Shown: one piece after another, positions 13,933-19,319 of the stretch
Position numbering within the stretch: position 1 is the stretch's first letter
Layout: each line of letters opens with the position of its first letter
NCBI GenBank assembly: GCA_944358445.1
Contig: CALVRC010000016.1
Span: forward strand, 1-37,541
Direction of reading: 5' to 3'
Length of the DNA stretch: 37,541 nucleotides
From: an uncultured Bacilli bacterium
Lineage (GTDB): Bacteria > Bacillota_I > Bacilli_A > RF39 > UBA660
Position numbers and translations under genes: made by a program
The notes under the pieces: generated by a model
What the model was told of the DNA's origin: nothing
Seen by the model: only the letters and a program-made list of their open reading frames with translations
Database searches by the model: none

Positions 13933-15027
13933 CCGGCATTCCTCCTTAAATTAGCGTTTATAAATTTATCTAAATCCCCATCCATAACTTTATTTACATT
14001 TGTTTCTTCACAATTTGTCCTATGATCTTTAACTAATGAATATGGATGCATAACATAACTTCTAATTTGAGAGCCAAAATTGATATCTCTTTGCTCACCT
14101 TTTAATTCTTGTAATTCTTTTCTTTTATTATCTTCTTCTATAGCATAAAGCTTACTTTTTAAAATCTGCATAGCTTTGGCTTTATTTTGAACTTGGCTTC
14201 TTTCATTTTGACAAGTTACAACTATTCCTGTTGGTAAGTGTGTTATTCTAACGGCACTATCTGTTGTATTAACACTTTGGCCACCGGCACCTGAACTATG
14301 GAAAACATCAATTTTTAAATCTTTTTCATTAATATCAACTTTTACTGTGTCATCAATAACTGGAGTAACACTTACTGAGGCAAATGAGGTATGTCTTCTA
14401 GCTCCTGAGTCAAATGGAGAAATTCTAACTAATCTATGAATTCCTTTTTCATTTTTTAAGTATCCATAGGCATATAAGCCTTTAACAATAACAGTAATAC
14501 TTTTTAATCCGGCTTCTAGGCCTGGCTGTTCATCGACTATTTCTAATTTATAGTTTTTCTTTTCAGAGTATCTTGAATACATTCTATATAACATATTAGC
14601 CCAATCACAAGCTTCAGTTCCTCCTGCGCCTGAGTGTATTTCTAAAACGGCGTCATTTTTGTCGTAATCACCGCTTAATAATATTATTGTTTCTGTTTCA
14701 TCAATTTTTTTACTTAAGTTTTTACTTTCAGTTTCTAGCCATAGTAGACTTTCTTCATCTTTAGAATCTAATGATTTTGCCATTTCTAGATAATCATTTG
14801 TTTCTTCTAATAGGCTTTGAACATCTTCTAAAACTTTCTTTTCGCTATTTAGTAGGTTGATTACTTCTTCACTATGCTTTTTATCATTCCAAAAGTTTGG
14901 AGAAGACATTTCTTCTTCTAGTTTTTTTATATTTTTCTTTTTTGTTTCAGGGTCAAAGTGACCTCCATAATTCGTTTAATTTTTTTTGATATCTTTCATA
15001 TAGATTAACCATTTCTTTTAATTCCAT
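13929..15027 (-). CDS. prfB: Peptide chain release factor 2 (programmed +1 frameshift)
   Basis: 365 residues when joined. Translation starts at the ATG at 15027 (GGAGG upstream), reads 24 codons to CTT at 14958-14956, meets UGA at 14955-14953, and must slip +1 to continue as GAC from 14954. The long second part carries SPF (about residues 203-205, recognition of UAA/UGA) and GAGGQ (GGQ about 248-250, peptidyl-tRNA hydrolysis), with VVTCQNERSQVQNK following. RF2 ends translation at UAA and UGA, so its presence means UGA is a stop here. First gene of prfB-yitT-ftsE-ftsX. Confidence 0.98.
14953..14966 (-). promoter_or_regulatory. prfB autoregulatory frameshift site
   Basis: Minus strand GGAGG (14966-14962), TCA, CTT, TGA followed by C. 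The Shine-Dalgarno-like GGAGG three bases before the slippery CTT-TGA is the canonical RF2 feedback element: low RF2 lets the ribosome slip +1. Confidence 0.97.
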
Positions 15028-15418: not shown

Positions 15419-16171
15419 TTATGTAGTTGGAAGTGTTAAAGATGGAGCTACAGTATTTAAATTACCATAATAACTTGGAACTTTACCATTAACTAATTTT
15501 AAGGCAATTGGCACTTTAGTTTCTAGTTCTATTTCTTTGTCATAGAATGGAAGTATAATATTTTCTGTTATTTTTATATTAGCATATACTTTTATTAAGG
15601 CATTATTGATTCCGTAATTAGTAAGTTCTGTAGAAATATTACTTACTACATCTCCTGTTAAAGAGATTTTTATAGGAATTTGCGCGCCAAAATTGGCAAA
15701 TATTGGATTATTGAAAATAAAGCCACTATTGAGATAATAGATTACACCGTTTTTTAATGCTTTTTCATCATAGTTTTCTAATAAGTCAGCTTGATATTCT
15801 ACTTTTTCTATATTCCCATTTTCTATATATTTTAAACTTTTTTGAATGCTTTTTGTTGCTGTTGTTAAATATTTATTGATTAATGCAGTATTGAAATCAA
15901 CACTTTTTATTTCTCCATTTGAATCATTTGTGATAACGAATAGGCTTTCTGTGTTTATTTTATCTGTTATATATTTATCAATCGCATTATTAATTATTAT
16001 GCTGGAAAATTTTTTAGCTTCTAAAGAGCTATATTCAAACAGTGATGGCATTATTCTATCTTTTATATAACCAAAGATTAAATATAAACTTATTATGATT
16101 AAAACTAGAAGAATAGCTATTAAATTAATAATTTTTGCTTTAGATTTTCTTTTTAAACGTATTCTATTCAT
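15419..16171 (-). CDS. yunB: Sporulation protein YunB
   Basis: 250 residues (about 254 in B. subtilis). Very basic N-terminus, one membrane segment (about 15-35), then EAKKFSSIIINNAIDKYI, SVDFNTALINKYLTTATKSIQKSL, NFGAQIPIKISLTGDVVSNISTELTNYGINNALIKVYANI and TKVPIALKLVNGKVPSYY, all YunB-like. YunB is a SigE-dependent protein required for efficient sporulation, with a role not fully known. There is no Shine-Dalgarno before the ATG. Instead CATACAAT, a perfect SigE -10 match, ends five bases before it, which would make a near-leaderless message; this may be coincidence. Confidence 0.88.
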   Translation of the reverse strand: MNRIRLKRKSKAKIINLIAILLVLIIISLYLIFGYIKDRIMPSLFEYSSLEAKKFSSIIINNAIDKYITDKINTESLFVITNDSNGEIKSVDFNTALINKYLTTATKSIQKSLKYIENGNIEKVEYQADLLENYDEKALKNGVIYYLNSGFIFNNPIFANFGAQIPIKISLTGDVVSNISTELTNYGINNALIKVYANIKITENIILPFYDKEIELETKVPIALKLVNGKVPSYYGNLNTVAPSLTLPTT

Positions 16172-16199: not shown

Positions 16200-16859
16200 T
16201 TAGCCCACTATCTCATAAGGTTCTTTAATTGTACCTTTACCTTCTAATTTTATATCTGATGAAAGATTTAAAACAGGTGAATAAAATATGGTACCATAGC
16301 AGCTTTGAGATACTAACTCTCTACCGGCTTGTATTACATATACATTATTACTGTTTAAGCCCGAAGATGAAAAATAAGGTGTGATTGTCCATGTTTGTTC
16401 ATTTTCATTAACTAAGTTTTGCATCCAATTTGTTTTTAAACATATATCACGGTTAGTTATTTCTTTTTTCATTGTTTCACACTAACTCGCATTAGAGTTA
16501 GCTCTTAAATATTCACTAGCAGTTGGAAGACCAATTTTACCAGTCCATATTTTACTATCTTCTTCTTTTATTTGTTCAATTAAATCATCATTATTATTTA
16601 ATGCACTACCAATTTTAAATTCTTTATCAATTATTTTATCTGTATTTGTGGTTATTTCATTAATGTATTCATTATTGAGATGATTCTTTAAATCTCCATT
16701 TTCCCAATTAGGACTATATTCATTCCAATAAAATTCATCGTTAGTTTCATTTCTAATTATTTTTATTGTATTATCTTTATCTACTGAAATTATTCTCCAA
16801 AGCTCATTATTTATACTTATATACATTTTTGGAATGGTGTAGATTAAAGGGAATAAAAG
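16200..16859 (-). pseudogene. Broken surface-protein C-terminal domain
   Basis: One minus-strand frame opens after a TAA at 16862-16860, gives IYTIPKMYISINNELWRIISVDKDNTIKIIR, runs to EYLRANSNAS, meets a TAG at 16484-16482, and continues in frame through WTITPYFSSSGLNSNNVYV to VLNLSSDIKLEGKGTIKEPYEIVG. The WRIISVD...TIK, GLPTASEYLRANS and LSSDI+..G.GT...PYEI pattern recurs as a C-terminal domain of large surface proteins in AT-rich gut Firmicutes (from memory). There is no start with a Shine-Dalgarno and no signal peptide, so this is a 5'-truncated copy with a nonsense mutation. A more decayed copy lies at 35211-35420. Confidence 0.75.
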
Positions 16860-16881
16860 TTACTATGGAGAAAAGCACTAA

Positions 16882-16905
16882 AAAAGCTAGAAAATTCTAG
16901 CTTTT
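16882..16905 (-). terminator. Terminator of the repeat-containing surface protein gene
   Basis: Minus strand AAAAGCTAGAA (16905-16895) and TTCTAGCTTTT (16892-16882) with a tiny loop and T run. It overlaps the last codons of the gene. Confidence 0.88.
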
Positions 16906-18219
16906 TCGATATCTAAATTTATATGTTACTTCTAATTCATAATTAGGATTAGTTGAAAATTCTAAAATTGATGTTTTAATTTTCTTTTCGAAATCAGCAT
17001 GATTTAATGGAGTTTTTAATACTTTTAATGAAAGTATGTCATACTCTATTCTAAATCTAGTCATTATTTTTCTTTCCATTATTCTATAGTCAAGGTTTTC
17101 TTCGTTGACATTTTGATCTGGTGACCATGATGTTGGATCACCTAAAGTTTCTGTTTCTGTATCTTTATATGGTCTTCCAGATGGTGCTTTTGATGTTAGA
17201 CCACTATATTTTCTTTTAGTTCCATTATACCATCTCCACTGTTTATCACGGTAGTGATAAAGTGTGGCTGTTTCTTCATCTCTTTTATTGTATTTATCCG
17301 TATTAACATCTTCTCTAGCTGTATATTGTCCATTATTATAGTATATTTTTTTACCTTCATCATTTAAATAGTAAAATTTATATCCTGTTGTACTAGAAAT
17401 TGTTCGGTAATCTTTTTCTTCTGGGTAATTTAGTGAGTATTCTGTCCATTCTGTTTCTCTGACACTAGCTGTATCTTTATTGGCATATCTAGCTGGTTGT
17501 TCTGAAGAAAACTCTGAATAATCTCCTTCAATATCATACCATTTCCAACTTCGGGTTCTATAACGATAATAATATGTTGTATCATTTTCTATATTAGCAA
17601 TTTTTCCTTCAGCTGGCACTTCTGGTAAATCTTCTTCGTTTAATGGTAATTTAATTCCATATTCTGATATTTCATCTGATATTTCCGAATCATCAAAATA
17701 TTCCGTCCATTTAGTATAGTTTGATTCTTTTTCATAATAATTATAATATGGAATGACATCTACAATTGCTTTTCCAGAAGGATATGCTGATTGTTCTTTG
17801 CTCCAACCACCATACTTAGTATTTACAGAGCATTTCCCGCAGTTTTTGGCATCTATAGTATATACATATTCATTTTTATATTTTGTTATTTTAACGCTTC
17901 CTGAACAAAGCGTGTTGTCTGTTCTTGAACTACTTAAATATTGTTCATTATACAAATCATCTAAACGAACACTGATATTTTCTCCTTCTAGACTAGGCAA
18001 GTTTCCTTGATCTTGGGCATATTTTAAACTTGCACTTTTAATTACATTATATACTTTTAAACAACCATTATTTTGAACAACGACAACTATGATAAATATT
18101 ATAATTACAATCGGTAAAATTGTTCCAAATACAAAGAAGAAATTTAACATTGGTTTCTTTGCTTCAAACGATTGATCAACAGCATTTCCTTCTCTATCTA
18201 CATAAGTTTGCCTTTTCAT
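16897..18219 (-). CDS. Membrane-anchored surface protein with aromatic repeats
   Basis: 440 residues, not assignable to a named family. Residues 1-24 are cytosolic, 26-48 a membrane anchor, the rest extracellular. The segment after the anchor (CLKVYNVIKSASLKYAQDQGNLPSLEGENISVRLDDLYNEQYL, then LCSGSV...YVYTIDAKNC) resembles prepilin-like surface proteins: a helix, a KLPS-like turn and a disulphide-prone Cys pair. Two clear repeats follow: YYYRYRTRSWKWY...YSEFSSEQPARYANKDT at 216-250 and LYHYRDKQWRWY...YSGLTSKAPSGRPYKDT at 320-354. A weaker one sits near 136-175. A cell-wall or glycan contact role is a guess. Good GAGGGGTGA site at the start. The upstream LppM-like gene is on the same strand, behind its own terminator. 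Confidence 0.75.
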   Translation of the reverse strand: MKRQTYVDREGNAVDQSFEAKKPMLNFFFVFGTILPIVIIIFIIVVVVQNNGCLKVYNVIKSASLKYAQDQGNLPSLEGENISVRLDDLYNEQYLSSSRTDNTLCSGSVKITKYKNEYVYTIDAKNCGKCSVNTKYGGWSKEQSAYPSGKAIVDVIPYYNYYEKESNYTKWTEYFDDSEISDEISEYGIKLPLNEEDLPEVPAEGKIANIENDTTYYYRYRTRSWKWYDIEGDYSEFSSEQPARYANKDTASVRETEWTEYSLNYPEEKDYRTISSTTGYKFYYLNDEGKKIYYNNGQYTAREDVNTDKYNKRDEETATLYHYRDKQWRWYNGTKRKYSGLTSKAPSGRPYKDTETETLGDPTSWSPDQNVNEENLDYRIMERKIMTRFRIEYDILSLKVLKTPLNHADFEKKIKTSILEFSTNPNYELEVTYKFRYRKS

Positions 18220-18282
18220 TTAATCACCCCTCGTATATTATCATTTTAACACATCTATAGTTTTTTTAAAATATATTAACAG

Positions 18283-18317: not shown

Positions 18318-19319
18318 TTATTTATTTTCATTGTTTGGCGTAGAATTAAAGATATTAGCATTTGCAGTATTAGTTGGAGCTTGTTCTGACTTTGTCATAT
18401 TATTTTGAATTTCTGAATTAACTTGAGGTGCTTGTTCAACTTTTGTTTCAGTAATATTTGAAACCGTTGGTATTGGCTGCTCATTTGTTGCTGATACAGT
18501 TGGTGCAATATTTTGATTAATATTTTCTACATTTGAATCAGTTACTTTTACTGGTGTTCCAACAGGCGCTTTTGGTTTTCTTTTTTTAGATACTATTACA
18601 ATTATAATTATTATAATAATGGCAGCTGCTATACCAGCAGTTAAATAAACATTATTCATATTATATAGTTCAAATTGAAATTCAATATTTTGAAGATTTT
18701 GATTCATTAAGTCCCAAACTAGTTTTTTACCATCATTTTCAGTAGATGTGGCATTACTCTTTATTGCTTTGTATGGTAAAGTTACATTAAATTTCATATC
18801 CATATTAGATGAAATAGAAGACAAATCAATATTACTTGAAAAATCCATAGAATTATCTTGACCATATGTTGTTGAATCTCCAAAATCCATTTGACTTTCT
18901 AATTCGCTTGAAGTATTATTTTCCATAGTAACGGTATATGTGTTTTTAAAGAAACCTTGTTTTACTGTGAATATCTGTGCATTTTCTTCATTCATCAATT
19001 TTTCTAAATCAAAATTTACTTTTTTGTCACTACTAATGTCATCAATATTTTTAAATTCTTTTGAAAGCGTATATCCTTTCATTGAACCATCTGAATATTC
19101 ATCTACTTTGAATCCGTTATTTTCAGCTTCATTTTTTGTTTCCTCATCCATAAGTCCTTCACTACCATATTGCTGTAATAAGCTTTGGTCAACTGCAGAA
19201 GTGACTGACAACTTCATGCTTTTATCTTTGTTGATACTCATATCAATGTTAGCCTTTACACACCCTGACATCATAAAAACAATTAACATAAGACATAAAA
19301 CTTTACAACTTTTTTTCAA
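18318..19319 (-). CDS. LppM-like lipoprotein with C-terminal membrane segment
   Basis: 333 residues from a TTG start preceded by GGGGAGAAAG. A lipoprotein signal ends at MMSGC (Cys20), followed by VKANIDMSINKDKSMKLSVT, typical of LppM/DUF3153 domains. The domain ends around NQNLQNIEFQFELYN. A membrane segment (about 227-245) with KKRK stop-transfer follows, then a Gln/Asn/Pro/Thr-rich cytosolic tail of about 85 residues. The protein thus has both a lipid anchor and a transmembrane helix. Function unknown. Confidence 0.75.
   Translation of the reverse strand: MKKSCKVLCLMLIVFMMSGCVKANIDMSINKDKSMKLSVTSAVDQSLLQQYGSEGLMDEETKNEAENNGFKVDEYSDGSMKGYTLSKEFKNIDDISSDKKVNFDLEKLMNEENAQIFTVKQGFFKNTYTVTMENNTSSELESQMDFGDSTTYGQDNSMDFSSNIDLSSISSNMDMKFNVTLPYKAIKSNATSTENDGKKLVWDLMNQNLQNIEFQFELYNMNNVYLTAGIAAAIIIIIIIVIVSKKRKPKAPVGTPVKVTDSNVENINQNIAPTVSATNEQPIPTVSNITETKVEQAPQVNSEIQNNMTKSEQAPTNTANANIFNSTPNNENK

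Follow-up and report, generated by a model that had tools for sequence, protein, structure and literature searches.

Modular type IV pilins, as described in passages of PMC8179133, consist of a small pilin module that bears a bulky, exposed module with a functional or binding role. PilB and PilC of Streptococcus sanguinis and CofB of E. coli share this arrangement of a pilin module and a bulky exposed module with the protein described here, and differ from it in that the class III signal peptide, which defines pilins, is lacking from our protein. For the T4SSs of Gram-positive bacteria, passages of PMC12102498 describe no classical pilus and contact that is made by surface adhesins, and the adhesin named there, PrgB, has the same role that we propose here, that of making contact for a monoderm T4SS that has no classical pilus. 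Surface proteins are required for a monoderm T4SS to reach its partner cell, and few of these are known. PrgB is a wall-anchored LPXTG adhesin, whereas our protein combines a pilin-type head with unrelated modules on a membrane anchor that is not cleaved. Here we analyzed a stretch of 37,541 nucleotides from an uncultured member of the Bacilli (referred to below as the window), and we favor, at roughly even probability, the reading that its 440-aa membrane-anchored protein is the surface-contact module of a fixed chromosomal T4SS, with an ectodomain that differs between lineages.

Gene organization and predicted protein

The open frame at 16897-18219 was found to be real from its orthologues and an AlphaFold2 model of its product, and it lies on the minus strand, which a preliminary description of the window had not given. 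It starts with an ATG at 18219 and encodes a 440-aa membrane-anchored protein with a pilin-type head and two Tyr/Trp/Arg-rich units. Preceding it on the same strand are a ribosome-binding-site-like GAGGGGTGA read from the sequence (18224-18232) and a housekeeping-type promoter (18243-18270), in which TTTAAA is separated by 16 nt from TAAAAT, which is preceded by TG (extended -10). This extended -10 pattern was present upstream of 50 of 57 orthologues, compared to a mean of 4.5 and a maximum of 11 in shuffled controls. Since the gene has this promoter-like site of its own and an intrinsic-terminator-like hairpin at its 3' end (16880-16907, minus strand), it is probably a single-gene unit in the window.

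Both neighbors that the preliminary description had named are present on the minus strand. Upstream is a gene for an LppM-like lipoprotein (18318-19319; Pfam LppM 28.7 bits, cut-off 27), and downstream, as judged from ORFs and Pfam, is a broken DUF6273-type gene (16200-16826) made up of the frames 16482-16826 and 16200-16472, which are in the same phase with an in-frame stop between them and which match Pfam DUF6273 with an E-value of 0.0058, short of the cut-off. Beyond the broken gene on the same strand is the sporulation gene yunB (15419-16171; NCBIfam spo_yunB 140.2 bits, cut-off 111.9). The earlier reading of a surface-protein locus is incomplete in that the gene forms its own transcription unit beside yunB-yutD-prfB-ftsEX and has relatives in a T4SS locus. 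The possibility that the LppM gene is a relic of T4SS lipoproteins was rejected, with blastp similarity never better than E 0.13. A relative of the broken DUF6273-type gene is uninterrupted in the equivalent place at L072 (DUF6273 34.7 bits) and likewise split at L070. Just upstream of the main frame of prfB (window 14951-14960, minus strand) is a CTTTGAC, which we take to be a classical programmed frameshift signal.

Hydropathy and sequence place a membrane anchor that has no prepilin motif at residues ~24-48 (18076-18150, minus strand); hydropathy peaks at 3.34 at residue 30 and is at most 0.34 past residue 60, leaving this as the sole membrane segment. The pilin-type head, delimited by a head profile and invariant columns, follows at residues ~49-133 (17821-18075, minus strand) and contains the conserved Cys53 and Cys130. 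In the AlphaFold2 model of the 440-aa protein (mean pLDDT 89.3), a helix predicted for residues 16-71 continues into a small strand-containing head, the ectodomain (residues 134-440; mean pLDDT 94.4) is predicted to consist mostly of long strands, and the C-terminal region (residues 396-440; 16900-17034, minus strand) is predicted to form helices and one strand. The predicted fold and bitopic topology would have a cytoplasmic N-terminus, one membrane helix, and an outer beta ectodomain. The single membrane segment and the conserved ectodomain cysteines agree with the earlier designation of a surface protein. Residues that are invariant over 57 sequences include Cys53, Cys130, Tyr218, Tyr228, Asp249, Tyr271, Arg272, Tyr323, Tyr338, Asp353, and Tyr393, among others; Asp249 in unit 1 and Asp353 in unit 2 occupy matching positions in the KD element, which makes it probable that these residues maintain the fold.

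Two homologous aromatic units

The ectodomain contains two Tyr/Trp/Arg-rich units of ~75-80 residues, which were delimited by a repeat profile: unit 1 at residues ~214-285 (17365-17580, minus strand; YYYRYRTRSWKWY...SSEQPARYANKDT; E 3.0e-23) and unit 2 at residues ~317-395 (17035-17271, minus strand; LYHYRDKQWRWY...TSKAPSGRPYKDT; E 3.1e-30). The half-profiles of the two units matched in hhalign with 99.0% probability and a score of 92.5, compared to a maximum of 22.3 and a mean of 11.7 in 100 column-shuffled controls. The two similar units of the preliminary description are thus present, and they are homologous well beyond chance. Aligned column by column across 18 proteins, they have in common YxYRxxxWxWY, then YS and a KD element, and later YR.

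The repeat had been called unfamiliar, and the searches bear this out: no significant Pfam, NCBIfam, or PDB sequence match was obtained with the protein, a 34-member alignment, or the repeat profile as the query, and the repeats matched no described domain in the libraries searched. On this evidence, the aromatic repeat is an undescribed family and is newly defined here. The open-licence literature yielded nothing on this repeat or on a T4SS in RF39. The model and its ectodomain, each used as a Foldseek query, gave no PDB chain at E <=0.001, and there was no match at that threshold in a viral library. In VIA-align 2, the best Z was 3.1 for the whole model (74 residues, rmsd 6.3) and 2.7 for the ectodomain (51 residues, rmsd 3.3); these comparisons with the whole model and the ectodomain as queries do not amount to a new fold. 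Tetraspanin and DUF6945 gave repeated weak hits below their cut-offs, which were treated as chance and perhaps have their source in the membrane helix and the YRYR-WRW segment. The idea of a thrombospondin-type-1-like Trp/Arg ladder received no support from any test that was run.

Relationship to prepilins

A profile of the anchor plus head was compared to prepilins of the window genome and related genomes and gave 34.6 bits for L055, 32.4 for L002, 22.6 for L163, and 20.9 for L147, while the best E-value of its shuffled controls was 0.2. Because small sequence sets lie behind the E-values of the head profile and of the comparison with L147 and L150, the bit scores are the better guide. Prepilin-type proteins with both the same head and the same repeat as the window protein also exist (L147 and L150), and the C-terminal region 396-440 is retained in L147. 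Two related genomes, G171 and G126, encode long proteins with a prepilin-type start (e.g., AFTLIEIV) that score 19.9 and 16.3 bits for N_methyl, just under the 21.2 cut-off; the head and repeat of these proteins, and in L147 also the C-terminal region, can be aligned to the window protein on both sides of a large insert. As judged by these homologies, the window protein is either derived from type IV prepilins or shares an ancestor with them. In two long prepilin-like proteins (L147:1061-3043 and L148:1691-3562), the pilin head is followed by tandem Cys/Trp repeats (CASTSPGTGWTQGAGC-like), and in L147 these repeats separate the head from the matching C-terminal part.

The pilin-like stalk of the preliminary description is upheld for the head, which is homologous to prepilins at 20-35 bits, and not for a prepilin cleavage motif, which is absent. 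The window N-terminus has no class III signal peptide (Gly/Ala cleavage site, hydrophobic tract, and Glu5), the protein has no N_methyl match in Pfam, and the motif was found in 0 of 26 head proteins read at T4SS loci (25 distinct, since L220 repeats L116). The lack of a cleavage motif means that the window protein should stay tethered in the membrane and be neither processed nor polymerized into a pilus. If the protein were a minor pilin, processed at a non-canonical site and still incorporated into type IV pili, this would account for the prepilin homology of the head, for the existence of prepilin-type homologues with the same ectodomain units, and for a genome with a PilB-type ATPase and 18 N_methyl prepilin matches over the cut-off, yet it is improbable given that the motif is missing from the window protein and the T4SS-locus head proteins alike and that only 2-3 of the 80 named loci have pilin genes next to them. 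The 18 matches are spread over several contigs of the window genome (G000), and some of their frames are 347-692 aa long.

Distribution and neighborhoods of the orthologues

Orthologues were found in 40 of 44 genomes of the genus, including 14 of 14 of the better genomes, showing that the gene is inherited and conserved and is not a variable orphan or part of an island. The full-length protein is present in 19 of 193 genomes of the family, and when the repeat profile was run over 392 genomes of the phylum, the 4 that matched were all within the same family. No relatives were found in the viral contigs, phage records, or plasmid records searched. The window genome is 1.43 Mb in size and belongs to a small-genome group. 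The 80 relatives in named records come from uncultured Bacilli, Tenericutes, Firmicutes, and similar entries, with Candidatus Pelethosoma (Candidatus Pelethosoma merdigallinarum) as the sole named genus among the loci.

Five kinds of neighborhood occur at these 80 loci, namely yunB (43, two of which are also T4SS loci), ylbD (12), cotZ (6), T4SS (9), and pilins (2-3), and in most members of the genus the gene is beside yunB. The orthologue is immediately downstream of the CotZ-like spore-coat gene, in the same orientation, in L104, L106, L107, L111, L113, and L124, and it is divergent from the YlbD-like coat gene in L119-L123, L125-L128, L130, L131, and L137. Such neighbors, with yqfD also nearby, could indicate a spore-envelope or engulfment protein that is made along with them, in what is probably the order RF39, predicted to sporulate in passages of PMC10868615, and in a family in which 165 of 193 genomes have spoIVA. 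We give this explanation little chance of being correct. The promoters of 50 of the 57 orthologues resemble the housekeeping extended -10 type, while simple sigma E, K, and G patterns were at chance (2, 0, and 0 of 57). The full-length form is far less widespread than spoIVA, and G071 has the full protein with no spoIVA match.

Linkage to a family-wide T4SS locus

A surface-contact module of a T4SS is suggested by the arrangement of genes in other lineages. At divergent orthologue loci, genes for VirD4, VirB4, an M23 peptidase, and a rhodanese adjoin the gene. Against this reading, the 440-aa gene is on contig C16 in the window genome and the T4SS is on C6, where the order is VirB6/TrbL-like, VirB4, peptidoglycan hydrolases, lipoproteins, VirD4, rhodanese, and rmuC, the last two directly following one another. 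The aromatic form adjoins VirD4 and/or rhodanese in 9 of the 80 named loci (L088, L092, L109, L116, L117, L129, L133, L135, and L139) and in G112, making 10 relatives. On the tree of aromatic-form proteins, this linkage occurs in four places and the starred branches force at least three changes; the trees are quick trees, with long branches for L113, L117, and L239. Within the clade that holds the window, L088 and L092 have a contiguous VirD4-rhodanese-gene-yunB-yutD-prfB order, and the T4SS and yunB neighborhoods are therefore joined inside this clade. It would be simplest to assume that the gene originally resided in the T4SS locus and that the linkage was lost in the window lineage.

A new family of paralogues, which share the anchor and head and often have a DUF6273-type end, is located in this chromosomal T4SS locus across the family, and the window protein is the best match in its own genome to the paralogue-head profile (A5; E 6.3e-17). 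Four of six T4SS-locus head proteins scanned matched DUF6273 at E <=0.01, two of the six over the cut-off. Strong paralogue matches, counted as the best per genome down to E 8.2e-22 with second matches dropped, were obtained in 99 genomes, of which 82 are represented among the VirD4 matches listed and 17 are not. Paralogue and VirD4 are on one contig in 38 of the 82 and on different contigs, which is uninformative, in 44. Among the 38, the paralogue follows VirD4 by 216-717 bp in 23, precedes it by 9-13 kb on the same strand in 12, and is farther away in 3, so that 35 of 38 are within the VirD4 neighborhood on the same strand.

The relation between the two forms was also compared across genomes. 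Of the 19 genomes that have the aromatic form, none gave a strong paralogue match, versus 99 of the 174 others, a mutual exclusion with P 4e-7 before correction for descent. On a VirD4 tree that included 23 DUF-type genomes picked for adjacency and omitted L220 as a copy of L116, the aromatic and paralogue sets fell on opposite sides of one branch (support 98); the exclusion may thus reflect one ancient exchange or separate descent and not many swaps. VirD4 was detected in 114 of the 118 genomes that have one or the other form versus 59 of the 75 that have neither (Fisher 1.2e-4). Since VirD4 is very common in the family (a close VirD4 is present in 173 of 193 genomes and in 42 of the 44 genus genomes), co-occurrence is weak evidence and synteny carries the case. 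One genome, G143, has the full protein and no detected VirD4, which also counts against the T4SS reading.

The recurrence of the linkage in four places on the tree and the 35 of 38 same-contig paralogues at the T4SS locus argue against an adhesin or wall/glycan-binding surface protein that stands on its own and is near T4SS genes by chance in some lineages. We consider this explanation unlikely, while noting that the aromatic/Arg-rich ectodomain, for which the preliminary description had suggested glycan or wall binding, the five kinds of neighborhood, and the gene's position in the window as a transcription unit of its own, bounded by a promoter and a terminator, would all be consistent with it. 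A VirB8-like structural subunit of the T4SS, with one membrane helix and a wall-facing domain instead of a contact function, agrees in topology and locus; it is very improbable, since the sequence homology is to pilins and the exposed part is wholly different between lineages, unlike that of a core subunit.

Proposed role as a contact module

The homologies, the repeat, the absence of the motif, the synteny, and the difference in ectodomain between lineages are established at the sequence level, and they suggest a physical association of the 440-aa protein with the T4SS. In the contact-module reading, the anchor and pilin-type head would place the protein at the envelope T4SS machine, where as an uncleaved prepilin relative it would stay in the membrane and not in a pilus, and the ectodomain would contact the surface or wall of a partner. 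In one lineage this ectodomain would consist of the aromatic units and in the other of a DUF6273/C-type-lectin-like domain. Passages of PMC10743442 describe DUF6273 modules as resembling C-type lectins in phage receptor-binding proteins, the tentaclins. In the paralogues, DUF6273 takes the place of the aromatic ectodomain behind the shared anchor and head, whereas the window protein's own ectodomain has no DUF6273 match in Pfam and only the broken neighboring gene resembles DUF6273. By analogy, the use of adhesins by Gram-positive T4SSs, the lectin-like DUF6273, and the binding modules carried on pilins point to a contact role. We more tentatively propose, as a possible history that we would not call probable, that in small-genome Bacilli of the gut a prepilin lost its processing site and became the tethered contact module of a family-wide T4SS, with its exposed domain swapped between lectin-like DUF6273 and the aromatic repeat.

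If the contact role is correct, it would be a new kind of link between pilins and T4SSs, and it would predict for a large uncultured lineage of the gut a fixed T4SS for contact with neighbors, fitted with lineage-specific contact modules. A close parallel is in the Patescibacteria, a different phylum whose small genomes, according to passages of PMC12102498, almost all carry a chromosomal monoderm T4SS, in most cases with no relaxase; a pilin-headed protein with swapped ectodomains is not mentioned in those passages. In the genus studied here, a relaxase of class PF03432, the one class scanned, was over the cut-off in 8 of 44 genomes, and the fixed T4SS may serve cell-cell interaction instead of conjugation. 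G006, G004, G021, G028, and G031 have a second VirD4 of ~600-660 aa within a few kilobases of a PF03432 relaxase, and these pairs apparently belong to mobile elements and not to the fixed T4SS. The T4SS locus on C6 of the window genome (L164) also contains three related lipoproteins, a C39/NlpC-type hydrolase, and a glucosaminidase-CHAP hydrolase, and it ends with the rhodanese gene followed by rmuC-rnr-smpB.
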